Below are positions 41,475 through 47,682 of a stretch of 64,000 nucleotides of DNA, piece by piece. The number at the start of each line of letters is the position of its first letter. Position 1 is the first letter of the stretch. Made by a program: the position numbers and the translations under genes. The notes below the pieces were generated by a model. The model saw nothing but the letters and a program-made list of their open reading frames with translations, did not search any database and had not been told where the DNA came from. Source of the stretch: Tetramitus jugosus (lineage: Eukaryota; Heterolobosea; Eutetramitea; Acrasida; Vahlkampfiidae); contig OW569377.1 of the NCBI GenBank assembly GCA_937625935.1, forward strand, positions 395,823 through 459,822, written 5' to 3'.

Positions 41475-41786
41475 TATTGGTTGGTAGGTTTGTTTGTTGG
41501 ATGGTCTTGGAATTCAATATTGAATATTGAATAACTTTTAATTGCAGGGAAGGGAGGGGTGCAAGGTGTAGTTTCCAATACAGTGGTAGACAAGTCCACA
41601 GTCGAGTTTGCAAGGGGGCAGCTTTTTGAAACATAAAAGAGAGTTGGTGGGGAGTAATGCAAGTTGTCAACTTCAAGTGCAGCGCTCCAGATTTGAGACC
41701 AACCGGAATTTTTGGCACTTTCGACAGCGTTTTCGGGAAAATGGGAGTGACCCCCTTCCCTGCATGCATGTGAATGATATATTGGC
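41475..41786. other. Spacer between membrane-protein gene and the Fanzor element
   Basis: About 310 bp carrying the leader of the minus-strand membrane-protein gene. Nothing else is recognised. Its last bases form the flank next to the TTAA at which the Fanzor element is inserted, so they are the candidate guide/target flank for that element. Confidence 0.5.
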
Positions 41787-41803
41787 TTAAGGTGGCGGTC
41801 TAC
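41787..41803 (+). repeat. Left terminal inverted repeat with TTAA
   Basis: TTAA at 41787-41790 plus 13 bp to 41803. The 17 bp are perfectly reverse complementary to 45851-45867. This end is next to the 3' end of the Fanzor gene. Confidence 0.88.
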
Positions 41804-41811
41804 TGTCGATC

Positions 41812-41865
41812 AAGCCATAATAAAAAAATTATGGTTTCCCGATAACGCTCCTACATAATCGGGAT
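41812..41865 (-). ncRNA. Candidate 3' part of Fanzor guide-RNA scaffold (two hairpins)
   Basis: Between the Fanzor stop codon (41866-41868) and the left TIR lie two hairpins. One is a 7-bp stem at 41837-41843/41858-41864 (TCCCGAT/ATCGGGA, 14-base loop). The other is a 7-bp stem at 41815-41821/41828-41834 (CCATAAT/ATTATGG, 6-base loop). In TnpB and Fanzor systems the structured part of the guide RNA overlaps or directly follows the 3' end of the nuclease gene, and the guide continues past the element end. Position and fold fit that plan. The transcript itself is inferred. Confidence 0.45.
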
Positions 41866-43779
41866 TTACATAGCAGCTTGATGGAGTGAGCCTTGGAGGT
41901 GTTCCACCATTTTGATTAATTCTTTTGCGACCTTTTTCTTCCTCTTGAAGGCATCGGGACGTGACTGTCCATCCATTTCTGTTCTCAGTAGATGGAGCAT
42001 GTTCTTGGCCGCATTGATGTCTCTGTTGTGAGTCACTAAACATTTAGTGGTTGCACACTGTTTAACTCCACGGACGACAGAGACATTCAACGTTCCATTC
42101 TTGTCTACTCTCTTATGCTTGACTGGCTTCATGTGAGAATGGCAATGATGACATTTCTGACTTGTCATGAACTCGTCGATCATTTTCACTTTGAAGTGCT
42201 CATTCAACTTTTTCAATAGCTTTCCTTTTGGTGTTGGAGCATGTCCTTTGTAACAATGACCAAAACCAGCATTGCCCATCCCAATTAACATGCTTCTTCC
42301 ATTTGTTCTCTTTCGAAAGTCATTCATAACATTGGCAATCGTCTTATCTCTCATTATATAGCTATCCCAATTCAGTCTCTTCACCTTTGGGGTGCAATAA
42401 AAATTCAACAAATCATCCTCGACTTTCAATACAGAATTGATGTGTTCAAGGAACAGACCACTTGTTGGTACACCGGCCTGTTTGATTGAATTTTGGAGTT
42501 CATCCAAGTTCTTCTCATTCATTTCGTTCCATTCTGCTTTGTATTTCAACAATCGCTTGGAGTTTTTTGAATGGTGGGACAGATGTCTATATGTTTTGTT
42601 AGACAACTCCCACTTCTTGCCATCTGAATCAACACAACTCACCAACGTAACAATACCCGGGTCAATCCCAACCAAATATTCAGCACCTTCGTTCATACTT
42701 GTTTCTTTCTTTCTCTTCTTTGCTTCTTTCTGGCCCTTGGATTCCTTTGCCTTATTGTTCTTGTGATTGCCAACGAGTTGATGTCTGATAACAACAGAGG
42801 CCTGAATACCGTCAGTTCTGATTGAGTCGATTTGAATCTTCTTTGTTCCAACATTCAAACACTTGAGATTACACTTCAATTCAGTTGACTCATCGCCCTT
42901 CTTTTGTCTTCCTTGTTTCTTCTGTTTAAGCATATCAACTAATTCCTTTGTGCCAATCTCCATACACCTGCACTTGAAATGAGACAAAGGAAGTAGTGCA
43001 AACGATTTCATATCATTGTTGATCAGAAATTGTTGAACATGCCAGTAAAACTTCAGCATGTTATTGATGTTGTTGTTCACAAATGATTCATCAATTACTT
43101 CATCAGTTTTAGCACCAACAAGTGCTCGAACCTCTCGGATCAACACAGGAATCGTCTCTATCAACTCTTTTGGAGGCAATTTGATAAAATCATGGACAGG
43201 AGTGCTAAATGTCAACCTTCTGATAATGTATTCAACAACCCTTCTTTGTTCTGACTTTGGAATAGATGAGTCACTGTGTAGTTGATTCATTCTGACCCTC
43301 AGATACTTCCTCAGTCTTGGTTCCAATGTGAACTTGAGCATGTTGGAGATGTTGACATTGAGAGACCTGGCAACATAATTGATGGACGTGGCAAAACTCT
43401 GATAAATCTTTCTGAGCTTGACTACTACATCGTCCATGTTGACAGACTCGTTGATGAGAATTACGTTATTGTCTCTTGGTTTTGAATTGCGTCCAAACAA
43501 CACAGAACCTAATCTTTGAAGAAACACTTGATCTAATAAAGGGATTTGATAGTTAGACTCCAAATGTCTCAAAACGAATATGTTTATAAATCTTGTGAGT
43601 CGAAGAGCAATCCTTGTAATCTCCAGAGCTTGAGTTTGTATGATTGGTAACAGAGTTGGATGATGCAACAATAGAGACTTCAGACCGACCTTGACCACGT
43701 AATGTGATGAGTATTCATCCTTTTTGACAGTCTCTCTCTTTCTCTTTCTCTTGCCGTCCTTCGGCACGCCTCGTGGCAT
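41866..43779 (-). CDS. Fanzor RNA-guided nuclease (TnpB-like RuvC)
   Basis: A 637-aa protein from ATG 43777-43779. The first 20 residues are a basic, nuclear-localisation-like stretch. A long helical, partly basic recognition region runs to about 360. The RuvC core follows: RuvC-I with Asp373 in YLVGIDPGIVTLV, the Fanzor-typical GMGNAGFG and GHAPTPKGK (501-520), then IDEFMTSQKCHHC with Glu536. The zinc ribbon is Cys543/Cys546 with Cys575/Cys580, and RuvC-III has Asp587 in HNRDINAAKNM. Placement of the catalytic Glu in the DE-x-x-TS-x-x-C segment is the rearranged site described for Fanzors; E445 in GLFLEHIN is a second candidate. All catalytic positions are intact, so the protein is probably active. 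The division into Fanzor1 or Fanzor2 is not decided here. Confidence 0.9.
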   Translation of the reverse strand: MPRGVPKDGKRKRKRETVKKDEYSSHYVVKVGLKSLLLHHPTLLPIIQTQALEITRIALRLTRFINIFVLRHLESNYQIPLLDQVFLQRLGSVLFGRNSKPRDNNVILINESVNMDDVVVKLRKIYQSFATSINYVARSLNVNISNMLKFTLEPRLRKYLRVRMNQLHSDSSIPKSEQRRVVEYIIRRLTFSTPVHDFIKLPPKELIETIPVLIREVRALVGAKTDEVIDESFVNNNINNMLKFYWHVQQFLINNDMKSFALLPLSHFKCRCMEIGTKELVDMLKQKKQGRQKKGDESTELKCNLKCLNVGTKKIQIDSIRTDGIQASVVIRHQLVGNHKNNKAKESKGQKEAKKRKKETSMNEGAEYLVGIDPGIVTLVSCVDSDGKKWELSNKTYRHLSHHSKNSKRLLKYKAEWNEMNEKNLDELQNSIKQAGVPTSGLFLEHINSVLKVEDDLLNFYCTPKVKRLNWDSYIMRDKTIANVMNDFRKRTNGRSMLIGMGNAGFGHCYKGHAPTPKGKLLKKLNEHFKVKMIDEFMTSQKCHHCHSHMKPVKHKRVDKNGTLNVSVVRGVKQCATTKCLVTHNRDINAAKNMLHLLRTEMDGQSRPDAFKRKKKVAKELIKMVEHLQGSLHQAAM

Positions 43780-44204
43780 GATGTTATTGTATTTGTTGTG
43801 TGTTGTATTTGTTGTGTGAGTTGAATCAAACAGCGAAAAAGACAGCGCTTTTTAAACCGAGGTAGATGGCCGTTGTCGTTGTAAAGACAGTCTCAACGGA
43901 AATTGTTACAACTGCACCAATTCCGCAGCTTAGAGGAAACTGATACAACATTTATTGTATTTTTTTATAATATATCCACCTATCTATCCAATCTTGAACC
44001 AAACGAAAAACTTTCTCTCTGACACGACAACAACAACGAAAAACACAAGTCGCACAACGAACATCAACAACAACAACAACCAAATCAATCAAAAAAGATG
44101 GAGAGTCGACAAGAGGTGTCTTTTTGCAGCATTTGATCTCTGGTGTTGGCAAGTTGTTGAGTGCTGAGAGAGCGAGTCTGTTCCTTATTCTCTAGATTTG
44201 GTTA
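43780..44204. other. Leader of the Fanzor gene inside the element
   Basis: About 425 bp between the Fanzor start and the end of the VPS35-like fragment, both minus strand. It is A/T-rich with CAA-rich runs and no recognisable gene. It should contain the Fanzor promoter. Confidence 0.4.
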
Positions 44205-44909
44205 TTAAATAGCAATCTCGGCATACTTTTCAGAATCACTCCTCTTCTTGGATCTCAAATAGTTGATAGTGTTGCGATAGAAGACATTGGTTGGTGCAAA
44301 GACATCATCAGGAGTCTCCTCTTCTTCAATCTTTGAGATATTGTCAGCGATTAGATCAATGAGACCGTTAATGTACTCGGCAGTCACCTTGTCATTGTCC
44401 TTGTCAAAGTGATAAGCGTACACGTTCAAAATGTCAACAAACAATGGAATTTGTTGTGCAGGCATGCATGCCTTGACAATCTTCAACGACCATTGCAAGC
44501 ATTCAAGTGCCTTTGAACTGTTCTGAAGCTCTTCGTTATTCACGAACGGCCAGAACAGATGAGAGCAAGTGAAGGCAGCTCTGCACTGATCAGGCTTCCT
44601 CAATAGCTTGGATGAGTATTGGCAGGTCTTTGTGGACAATGTGTCATAGTTTTCGCATCTCACAATGCTCAGTGCAATAAACTTTCTCTGTTCATATCCA
44701 AGAGAATGAATAATATCACCATACTTCTCCAACTTCAAAACTGTTAGCACATTGTTGTATGACTCGAGTGGCACCAACAACAATCGCTTCAACATGTCTA
44801 CAATTTCATCTGAAGCAAGTGCAGTGCTATTCAATTGACTAGCAATGTTATTAATAATCTTGTTGACATAGTCAGTGTTATCAGGATATGTTTGAAGAGC
44901 AAGTGTCAT
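44205..44909 (-). pseudogene. Internally deleted VPS35 (retromer) fragment in the Fanzor element
   Basis: A 234-codon open frame from ATG 44907-44909. Residues 1-80 match a middle segment of VPS35 (YPDNTDYVNKI, then PLESYNNVLTVLKLEKY). From about 83 on the sequence matches the C-terminal segment (SSKLLRKPDQCRAAFTCSHL, then EYINGLIDLIADN). Some 200 or more residues that separate these in VPS35 are missing, as is the N-terminal half with the VPS26-binding end. Homology continues about 11 residues upstream of the ATG to a TAG, so the 5' end is truncated. VPS35 is the retromer core for endosomal sorting. This piece cannot replace it but keeps an open frame: captured exon-like cargo or a young pseudogene. 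Confidence 0.65.
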
Positions 44910-45165
44910 CAATGAGATCTGAATACTCAAGTTATCGGACAATTCAACACCTCTCTAATGGTATCAATAGGACAGAATTTGACAAACATCAGAAAACTCA
45001 TACTCATCATCAGGTCACTCGCATTCACGATGTCCTTCAGAGTGTTTGTTTTCTGTGTTTTGCAAGTTTTTTTTGATGCTGAGCAGCAACTTTGGTGTTG
45101 GTTATGTCTTCTTTTGGCGCCTTTTCCTTGTTTTCCCATTTGTTCCTTGAGGCTTACCGTGCAAA

Positions 45166-45372
45166 TTGCAAAGGAAACGTGGAACCCAGTACTGTCACAT
45201 TCACCAAAACTACACCTCCAATGGACAATTCTATCAAATTGATGATGTTCTGGATTGGAAGTATCAAAATGGTTCTTGGTATGGTTATGTGAAGTGGAAG
45301 GGATTCTACTTGGCATGTTCATGGGAACAATTTGAATTGGTCCCTGGAGGGTGGAGAGTTGTTAATCAATGA
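45166..45372 (+). pseudogene. Chromodomain-like fragment in the Fanzor element
   Basis: An open frame without ATG (it begins after TGA 45148) reads FYQIDDVLDWKYQNGSWYGY, then VKWKGFYLACSWEQFELVPG, then a stop. The pattern Y-x-I-D-x-V-L-D, V-K-W-K-G, S-W-E is that of a chromodomain, the histone-methyl-lysine reader also found at the C-terminus of some retroelement integrases. It lacks a start and any partner domain, so it is probably a fragment or exon. Confidence 0.5.
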
Positions 45373-45850
45373 TAAACAACCTTACAGAAAATATTTAGAC
45401 AACAGAAAGATGACGTTACTCGTTTGGCAAATGCTTTATTTCTTCTTGGGTGGTTCAATCTCGCGTCTTGAAAGAAAACGTCCATCGTCCATCCTCTGAA
45501 CCAATACACACAACAACCGAAATCATCTACTGGAGGAGACTCCAATATGAAACTCTACCAAGTATTGCATCTTTGACTCAGAACTTGTTTAATGACAACG
45601 TGTGGATGACTCATCATCCAAGTGTGTTTTTGTATTCTCCAGAGAGATTCAATGTTCCTGTCAACTAGCCCAAATAAAGAAGCCCGAACCTCCGCCGCAG
45701 AGAAATCACAAAGCACGAAAGCGTTGCTTGTAACCGAGAATTCACAGTATTGTGGATGATTAACACTTGTGTATGGATTCTGATGTTTTTTGATCGACCC
45801 ACATCTTGCTTCTTTTTTCTCAAACAAAAATCATTTTATACGAGGAGCTG
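45373..45850. other. Undefined right part of the Fanzor element
   Basis: A + strand frame at 45450-45668 (about 72 codons, GTG start only) has no recognisable motif. The rest, up to the right TIR, holds only the short subterminal inverted match at 45790-45798. Confidence 0.4.
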
Positions 45851-45867
45851 GTAGACCGCCACCTTAA
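45851..45867 (-). repeat. Right terminal inverted repeat with TTAA
   Basis: GTAGACCGCCACC followed by TTAA (45864-45867). It is the perfect reverse complement of the left end. It adjoins the 5' side of the element with respect to the Fanzor gene, where a TnpB-type target-adjacent motif would be expected. Confidence 0.88.
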
Positions 45868-46098
45868 AATTTTCTAGAAGAAGAGGAGCAATAATTGTAC
45901 AGCTCACCACAATGCCAACAACAGTTCTTCTCACGAGACAACAGAAGAAGAGTGGACTTCAAAAACACCTGGCATGTTCACTTTTGCGAAGAAGGGAGAT
46001 AGAAAAACGAGGTTTCTGGCGTTGTACTTGAGGAACGCACTCACAATAAACTTGAGTGAATACATCGGTTCGAGAGAGCTTTTATTTTTTTCGCTTCT

Positions 46099-47682
46099 TC
46101 AAAATTCGTCATCACCATCGTCAGAGTAATCATCTCCCGATCCATCACTCTCTTCCTCACTTTCAGAGTTCACAACTGCTCCCCTGTTGTTGCTTCTCCC
46201 AGAGGTTTGGTCGTCGCTCTCTTCCTCCTCGTCATCGTCTTCTTCGCTCTCGTCACTGCTATTGTACATCATGGCTGCCTGGTTGACTCTTTTCTGGTGA
46301 TTGGCAGGATTGCCATTGCTTGGCTGGTTTCCAACACTATTACTATGCTGATTCATGGACATACTCTGTCTCATTTGGGAGTTTACATTCTTGTCGACTA
46401 CCACCATTCCTGAGGCTGCTGCAGAGGGATTGGATAGTGGATCTCTGTGAGGCCTTCTGCCACTTGCTGCTCTGGGTCGTCTTGAAATGTTCTGATTCAT
46501 GGGGGATTCTTCATCACCATCGTCTTCTTCCTCGTCATCTTCGTCGTCATCTTCATCGTCTTCGGATCCATCGGAAGCACTGTCTCCATATTCCTGTTCC
46601 ATGTCACCAAATTGGTGATCTCCTCTCATGATGGCCAATTCCTCTTCCTTCATCTTCTTCCTCAGAACTGCCAACCTCCTTCCATTTTCTTCCATGGCCT
46701 CTGCTTCTGCTTTCCTGTATTTGTCAAGTTCATTCTCTAGGTACTCAATGTTTCTGTATCTCTCAACATACTGTGTGTACAACTCTTGAAGCTCTTTCTC
46801 TCGACCTTCGAACTCATCCATAAAACCAGGTCTGAATCCTTGCATACGCAGCAATCTTTTCTTTGAACGAGCCAAGTCGGAGCTCTTTGTCTTTAACTTT
46901 TCCTTTAAACTATCTTCGTCTTTCCTCAAACTATTGATGTTGTCTGTCATGCTGCTAATCATTTCGTTCGCTTCAATATTTTTCTTCGATATAATGTGTT
47001 TAATTTGGTCAATATTGTGAGGTTGAGAAATTGCCATCTGCCTTTCTTTTCTCAAATCCAACTCTTCTTCTAACAAGTCGTACAGCTGAGATCCCAAGTC
47101 GGTCAATTCTGAAGCAACAATCCGAATATTCTTTACATTGTCTTGAAATCGACTGCTTCGTAGTTGAATAGAATTGATTTCTTCGTCCTCTTTGTGTGAA
47201 GAAGCTATTAGAGTAGCTGTATTCAGAACTGTTGCTAGCTTAAGCAATTCTTTCACTGCATAACCGTCAGCACCGTATAATTTCTTGATATTTAACTTAA
47301 TTCTAGCTTTGTAGTACTGAGGGCGATGGCAAAGCAACATGGTGAATAGGAAGTACCTTCGAGAAAAGGATGAAACAACTGGGTCATTGTACATACCACT
47401 AGTTGAGCAATGGATTTCAGGAACGCGATTCGATCGCTCTCTGTTGCAATTGAATCAGGAATATCAACATTTTGGTCATATCTCTGCACCAACCAATACA
47501 GTATATCAGAGACAAGCACGAAATTAGGTGTCCGAAAGTTTTCCATCGATATCAATCGAGGATAACCCAAATTTCGCATAATCTCGGTAAAATCTGCAAG
47601 GTATTAGTTCACACTTATCTTCTGTTCCTTTTTCATATCGATTTCATGAGCCATACTTACTTCTCAGTTCTCGAAACGACAT
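46099..47682 (-). CDS. CLUAP1: Clusterin-associated protein 1 / IFT38
   Basis: Three exons on the minus strand: 47661-47682, 47397-47593 and 46099-47316, with introns of 67 and 80 nt (GTAAGT...GCAG and GTATGT...TCAG). Together they give 478 aa in frame. The protein starts [20 protein letters not shown] and continues [11 protein letters not shown], then [20 protein letters not shown]. This is the calponin-homology-like N-terminus of CLUAP1/IFT38/DYF-3. A coiled coil (about 200-345) and a long acidic, Ser-rich tail follow. It is an IFT-B subunit needed to build flagella, which fits an amoeboflagellate. The exon joins restore the family spacing exactly. Confidence 0.95.

Follow-up and report, generated by a model that had tools for sequence, protein, structure and literature searches.

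What does an RNA-guided nuclease contribute to the eukaryotic DNA transposon that carries it? This question is raised by a stretch of 64,000 nucleotides (the window) from Tetramitus jugosus (contig OW569377.1, positions 395,823 to 459,822), in which a 4.08-kb element bounded by TTAA encodes a Fanzor, an endonuclease the biological role of whose activity has been stated to be unknown (Saito et al. 2023). A first-pass annotation of the window had named two possible routes for such an element, a piggyBac- or Sola3-like mover acting in trans and maintenance by Fanzor itself. We followed the element family through the genome containing the window (a eukaryotic assembly of 26.35 Mb in 56 contigs) and found that truncated copies mostly keep the Fanzor-3′ end and that some of them repeat the adjoining host flank beyond the truncated side. 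From these patterns we think it rather probable that this is a transposon moved in trans at TTAA, whose Fanzor re-copies the element into empty sites cut under RNA guidance. The comparison with the literature draws on excerpts of PMC10432273, PMC11423790 and PMC3627910.

One-ended copies and flank duplications

The sequence TTAAGGTGGCGGTCTAC, consisting of TTAA and a 13-bp terminal inverted repeat (TIR), bounds the element with 0 mismatches at either end (41787-41803 on the plus strand, 45851-45867 on the minus strand), which bears out the exact 17-bp termini that the annotation had described; the window holds no further site at up to three mismatches (expected 0.07; two sites in 0 of 100 shuffles). 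Also as claimed, the Fanzor open reading frame (ORF) is intact, and a domain search of the three largest minus-strand ORFs of the element returned no transposase domain, in agreement with the reported lack of a visible transposase.

41787..45867, no strand: whole TTAA-bounded Fanzor element, a mosaic copy
41787..41803, plus strand: left end, TTAA and 13-bp TIR, Fanzor-3′ and presumed omegaRNA end
41866..43779, minus strand: Fanzor (Fanzor1-like) coding sequence, 637 aa, with RuvC residues D373, E536 and D587 and a C4 zinc ribbon
45851..45867, minus strand: right end, TTAA and 13-bp TIR, Fanzor-5′ end

Further copies next to TTAA, the first check that the annotation had suggested, turned out to be numerous when the same genome was searched with DNA, TIR and protein queries. 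In 39 events the copy retains the Fanzor-3′ end, presumed to be the omegaRNA end, 21 of them with both ends and 18 with this end alone, and two copies with only the other end (L030, L032) were counted apart. Three end types were distinguished. Type A has TTAAGGTGGCGGTCTAC at both ends and measures 2.55-2.77 kb in seven copies and 4.08 kb in the window (26 exact and nine one-mismatch sites of this end in the genome, both element ends counted); type B has TTAAGGATGTAGTTCGGTGA and ..CGTTGG ends and 3.4-4.0 kb, with a compact 2.18-kb relative, L048, in which the Fanzor is broken into two ORFs; and type C has ..GGTCCAC and ..CCGTCCAC ends and 3.2-4.6 kb. TTAA stands on both sides of 20 of the 21 two-ended copies (the exception, L016, has CCAA on one side) and the flanks are unlike between loci, except for L052 and L060, from which we infer that TTAA is duplicated on insertion. 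The claim that Fanzor sits within a TTAA-type DNA transposon is thereby supported, and the TTAA target and short TIRs are features of the piggyBac superfamily.

The 18 one-ended events correspond to 19 loci, with L052 and L060 taken as one segmental duplication, and L044 was classed with the two-ended copies, since CCTTAA still terminates its right end despite the damage there. Left out of the end counts were L001-L008, which occupy the places of L009-L015 and L047; L060, as a segmental copy of L052; L038, the host gene VPS35; L040, L043, L045 and L046, in which ends were not found; the piggyBac loci L049 and L061-L064; and the flank extensions L054-L057.

The retention of ends is lopsided, with 18 one-ended copies keeping the omegaRNA end and 2 the other (p 4e-4, a rough guide like the other p-values given here, as the copies may not be independent). 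For each locus, we took the flank plus TTAA and sought its longest suffix downstream of the element, using all 1560 ordered cross-locus pairings of 40 loci (L060 included) as the control. In 6 of the 18 one-ended copies, the flank at the omegaRNA end, here called the guide-side flank, is repeated at the far junction and terminates exactly at TTAA, with exact matches, TTAA included, of 16 letters in L026, 15 in L039, 13 in L015, L028 and L051, and 12 in L053; the control maximum was 11, and none of the 1560 pairings reached the lengths of the six copies. When one mismatch was allowed, the match extended to 20 letters in L051 and 18 in L026, with controls reaching 13 (3/1560); L015, L028 and L053 exceeded the controls in the exact test only. 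Allowing one 1-nt gap gave 25 letters in L053, against a control maximum of 11. No such duplication was found by the exact suffix test in the other 12 one-ended events (at most seven letters) or in any of the 21 two-ended copies (at most nine letters in 20, five in L044; Fisher p 0.006), nor by the mirror test at the opposite end of 22 copies (at most 10 letters) or in L030 and L032 (five letters each). A similar stretch 118 bp to the right of L024 looks like a repeat in a host coiled-coil gene and was rejected as an insertion duplication.

The flank part of the duplications measures approximately 9-21 nt, plus TTAA. Because this repeat lies beyond the truncated element, it points to a break inside the guide-side flank of an empty site. 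Published cut sites for four Fanzors lie 9-21 nt from the target-adjacent motif (TAM), namely, at 16-17 and 20-21 nt for SpuFz1, 14-17 nt for GtFz1, 19 nt for NlovFz2 and 17-18 and 9-14 nt for MmeFz2 (PMC10432273), and this agreement in range supports RNA-guided cutting. The duplications may thus be what cutting of an empty site with TTAA as the TAM, followed by aborted copy-back, would leave.

One-ended or aberrant transposition would offer a different origin: a transposase would join only the 41787 end, and the other end would be end-joined to a staggered target break, with no part played by Fanzor. Such a process yields one-ended copies with variable duplications and was proposed by Bao and Jurka for Chlamydomonas (PMC3627910). 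Letters in common at the junctions (ACG in L028, GAC in L039) and filler point to end joining as well. The staggers required would be 13-25 bp, and piggyBac-type TTAA transposases make 4-base staggers. Moreover, either end should serve, yet the omegaRNA end prevails and neither copy with only the other end has a duplication, and in Chlamydomonas the duplications track Fanzor, not the transposon type (PMC3627910). We therefore regard one-ended transposition as unlikely.

Target context, putative omegaRNA and Fanzor protein

If Fanzor recognizes empty sites, the host sequence preceding TTAA opposite the guide side should form part of the TAM. On this TAM side (29 sites: 22 right flanks, the six duplications and L044), the base before TTAA is A or T in 28 of 29 cases, compared with 22 of 39 on the mirrored guide side (Fisher 1.8e-4) and 56% of host TTAA sites (binomial 1.1e-6; 61% within the window), and the second base before TTAA is A in 0 of 29 versus 10 of 39 (Fisher 0.004). 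At all 40 loci, the omegaRNA end of the element itself presents CC in front of TTAA, so that a W-TTAA TAM would spare the element.

41787..41911, minus strand: putative omegaRNA region, made up of the last codons, the 75 bp past the stop codon and TTAA, placed after the SpuFz1 layout (PMC10432273)
41766..41786, minus strand: predicted guide/target, the host flank at the omegaRNA end, starting directly after TTAA, placed by geometry
45868..45873, minus strand: host side preceding TTAA in a presumed empty site (..AAAATT)

The distance between the stop codon and the outer TTAA edge is 79 bp, near the layout of SpuFz1 from Spizellomyces punctatus, in which an approximately 80-nt RNA region separates the stop codon from the 3′ inverted repeat (PMC10432273), and by this analogy the 3′ end of the element (left in the window) should be the omegaRNA end. 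For the putative omegaRNA of eight copies, fold z scores ranged between -0.1 and -2.7 (window copy -2.7). An alignment of seven rows showed weak consensus and covariation, with three outer pairs and a seven-pair hairpin that are partly broken or gapped in L048 and L037, and the one Rfam hit within 41500-46100, to CrcZ, was a chance match (E 0.43).

The Fanzor protein itself looks functional. Asp373, Glu536 and Asp587 and the zinc-ribbon residues Cys543, Cys546, Cys575 and Cys580 are invariant across eight aligned sequences, as expected from the annotation, which had listed the catalytic triad and the cysteines as present. By hand count along the alignment, the acidic triad corresponds to D383, E541 and D606 of SpuFz1 (numbering per PMC10432273). 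SpuFz1 (8gkh) was the sole Fanzor among the solved-structure matches (E 4e-13, residues 131-614), which did not include GtFz1, and Cas12f1-like_TNB (PF07282) matched at 7.8e-10. The Fanzor/TnpB signature D-X(125,275)-[TS][TS]-X-X-C4 zinc finger-X(5,50)-RD (Bao and Jurka, PMC3627910) is found in full with D373, T539 S540, C543/C546/C575/C580 and R586 D587. The match to SpuFz1, a Fanzor1, and the TIR-bounded element make the protein a candidate Fanzor1, the group carried by DDE/Helitron-type transposons and not by IS607, rather than a Fanzor2.

The genome holds 19 intact full-length Fanzor ORFs without a stop. The ratio of nonsynonymous to synonymous substitution rates (dN/dS) was 0.09-0.28 in all 66 pairs of 12 representatives, taken from 21 long Fanzor ORFs extracted, and 0.14-0.28 in the 11 pairs that include the window copy. 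Such selection could also act on a passenger Fanzor with another role, for example in transposase regulation, and the target asymmetry would then reflect transposase preference alone. The dN/dS values show only that the protein matters, which suits a passenger, but the duplications and the omegaRNA-end bias would be left unexplained, and we consider this account very improbable.

Two protein searches, with at most 7998 candidates scored, returned five and six relatives, metagenomic or unnamed, and a scan of viral contigs with the Fanzor alignment gave 69 stretches that fit a pattern, none of which is a relative. An AlphaFold model built from five sequences had a mean pLDDT of 37 and was not used. 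Further Fanzor fragments of approximately 43-77% identity (G000:C48:10490, C7:634422, C26:15957, C38:436822 and others) occur in the genome, which suggests that it was visited by older Fanzor lineages.

Mosaic copies and the search for a mover

The copies also bear traces of exchange. The window copy consists of type-A ends around a B/C-type interior that includes two pieces of the host retromer gene VPS35 (L038, G000:C22:81500-86500, Pfam PF03635). Pieces of this gene are found in the window copy and the compared B, C and L031 copies and are missing from L018 and L048; the piece in L031 is longer (1169 bp, 98.9% identity).

43944..44129, no strand: part common to B/C-type copies, missing from the type-A copy L018
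44204..44656, minus strand: piece captured from the 3′ part of the host VPS35, 99.8% identity, with the same junction in L009
44654..44991, minus strand: captured VPS35 piece, 97.4% identity, which together with the piece at 44204..44656 makes an ORF at 44205-44909
45092..45370, no strand: part common to C-type copies, a 59-bp piece in inverted order and 221 bp
45393..45867, no strand: type-A right end (Fanzor-5′ side), with a TATAAA-like motif near the terminus

Compared with L018, the copies L034, L035 and L036 are 90-100% identical over the first 350 bp (except for the type-B tip of L036, 68%), mostly 40-80% across the Fanzor gene and again 96-100% near 2050. The identity of the window copy to L018 is 94-100% up to 1100 (80% at 50-100), 60-94% to approximately 1800 and 94-100% thereafter, and that of L024 is 94-100% to 300 and then 70-86% to 900. 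The Fanzor cores are thus divergent between near-identical tracts at both ends, whose edges fall, counted from the omegaRNA end, near 300, 350 and 1100 bp, a pattern that would fit repair copying between copies.

Copying of this kind could follow ordinary excision, and aborted gap repair after excision is known for other cut-and-paste elements. A transposase-made gap incompletely filled from the sister by synthesis-dependent strand annealing would give truncations and mosaics, and the duplications would be chance or later events. This would account for two-ended copies with internal deletions (L044, 319 bp), for the wide spread of truncation lengths and for the end-anchored tracts. An excision break adds no flank copy, however, because it falls at TTAA without the opposite flank on either side; it cannot supply 9-21 nt of that flank, no duplication is expected from it, and the cross-locus controls make chance duplications unlikely. 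Gap repair as the sole origin of truncations and mosaics, with duplications by chance or later events, appears to us distinctly unlikely.

A second captured host gene may be present in the C-type copies, where a 254-aa ORF with repeated pieces (L024:2009-2773, minus strand) looks like one; it had no Pfam match above the cut-off, and we take its F-box- or chromo-like appearance as an impression by eye only. A TATAAA-like motif, possibly the Fanzor promoter, lies approximately 25-35 bp inside the Fanzor-5′ terminus at the five ends examined (L018, L047, L024, L012, L048) and at about 45830-45845 in the window element. The neighbouring genes include those for RhoGEF/myosin-tail, RhoGAP and Cluap1 proteins.

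A mover was sought in the same genome by way of the Fanzor TIRs and piggyBac transposase genes. The annotation had advised looking for a full-length relative with a piggyBac transposase, and none emerged: searches allowing one or two mismatches in the TIRs returned only Fanzor elements or short omegaRNA-end pieces, seven of which were read over at most 500 bp each, so that a more distant partner gene there is possible. Neither a DDE_Tnp_1_7 transposase of its own nor TIRs shared with one were found for the Fanzor element in its three largest minus-strand ORFs and in the TIR searches. The genome has 12 matches to piggyBac transposases (PF13843). The one piggyBac family with its ends read, at C18:38735, has inverted TTCGGCCAGATTTTACC repeats with no TTAA adjoining, unlike the Fanzor ends, and no inverted TTAA repeat was found in the 3.5 kb around the piggyBac copy on C34. 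The mover may act in trans on divergent ends, be missing from the assembly or have been lost.

Two piggyBac genes (G000:C18:150749 and G000:C30:266267, the L063-L064 pair) are 99% identical over the 500 bp read on the 3′ side, which suggests recent movement or duplication of that transposase family. A 35-bp type-B tip occurs at the two alike-flanked loci L052 (G000:C47:119538) and L060 (C52:91097), either as a solo end predating the segmental duplication or as part of another element sharing the tip. A 125-aa ORF lies beside it, with a third relative at C1:696987; it gave a weak match to Muted below the cut-off and three matches in the genome, and was rejected as a known transposase.

A proposed copy-back cycle and its relation to known Fanzors

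The observations could be joined in a cycle in which a non-autonomous cut-and-paste transposon would be moved at TTAA by a TTAA-specific transposase in trans. RNA from its Fanzor-3′ end would extend into the host flank, which would serve as the guide. On an allele without the element, whether left by excision or present on the homologue, Fanzor would recognize T/A-TTAA and cut up to approximately 21 nt into the flank; repair would take the other allele as the template for the element, with copying entering via the shared flank at the omegaRNA end. Full copying would restore the element, and aborted copying would leave the omegaRNA end alone, next to a repeat of the stretch between TTAA and the cut, while CC-TTAA at the element end, not being a TAM, would prevent self-cutting. 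The suggestion that Fanzor itself maintains the element is the one best supported, by the target-side duplications in truncated copies. RNA-guided homing, and with it the omegaRNA, TAM, cutting and copy-back, goes beyond what the copies display, as does the mover.

Several points weigh against this cycle. Twelve of the 18 one-ended copies lack a duplication and would have to be explained by end resection or otherwise; L052 possibly belongs to a different element with only the 35-bp tip in common, which would leave 6/17; the repeats of L028 and L039 share three letters with the element edge; and the copies' possible non-independence has been mentioned. Base composition at guide position 1 is uneven (G 16, T 12, A 10, C 1; n=39), which the model does not predict, and the target asymmetry could stem at least in part from transposase preference. 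The end-anchored tracts could result from ordinary gap repair after excision, with identity near the omegaRNA end owed partly to RNA constraint. In Chlamydomonas, some copies have far longer duplications (44-443 bp), and only approximately 10% of CRe-3 copies have any (PMC3627910).

This organization resembles that of Spu-1, the element of SpuFz1, in several respects. The three catalytic positions are the same, Spizellomyces punctatus has 19 full-length genes and T. jugosus 19 intact ORFs, and no transposase was found between the Spu-1 repeats (PMC10432273). A conserved CA upstream of the 5′ inverted repeat and the TAM CATA (PMC10432273) can be taken to mean that the TAM extends beyond the element. 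In contrast to the TTAA predicted here and the 13-bp TIRs, Spu-1 has CATA and 30-nt inverted repeats, and its ghost elements retain both ends, where the Tetramitus copies are solo omegaRNA ends. GtFz1 of Guillardia theta has the TAM TTAAN (PMC10432273), as would be predicted for a TTAA transposon, although its loci are described as seeming to lack inverted repeats and a clear transposase, and the likeness noted here is one of description.

The Fanzor1-bearing Helitrons CRe-1, CRe-2 and CRe-3 of Chlamydomonas likewise keep the 3′ end, are truncated at the 5′ side and have short duplications (7-19 bp) that start directly after a fixed tetranucleotide, TTTT (PMC3627910). They differ in having Helitron ends and TTTT, and were read by the authors as products of one-ended rolling-circle transposition; among related Fanzor-free Helitrons, 1 of 200 had a duplication, and the part of Fanzor in this difference was left undecided (PMC3627910). 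The insect-virus Fanzor1 families HVav-1, SFav-1, PUgv-1, HAgv-1 and HAmn-1 share 4-bp TTAN duplications and 13-bp TIRs, with no transposase information, but reside in viral genomes, and the excerpted description mentions no truncation pattern. For TnpB of ISDra2/IS605, a similar logic has been proposed, a break at the TAM on the sister chromosome letting the element copy itself, although an HUH peel-and-paste transposase is involved and there are no TIRs or TTAA. Homing scars of Fanzor elements were named in no title or abstract opening among the Fanzor/TnpB literature matches listed.

The chance is slightly better than even, in our judgement, that the truncated copies are remnants of homing events driven by an RNA-guided eukaryotic Fanzor, with duplications running from the TAM to the cut. 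If so, the role of Fanzor would be readable from assemblies as truncated copies, one-sided duplications, TAM context and self-protection at the element end, the last achieved by a TIR that replaces the base before TTAA. Genome sequence alone would then give the TAM, guide side and cut distance before biochemistry, any genome with multi-copy Fanzor elements would become a test, and the duplications of the one-ended Chlamydomonas Helitrons would be reinterpreted as homing scars. In ordinary cut-and-paste transposons, Fanzor would then find its missing natural role as a drive-like device that copies the element back.

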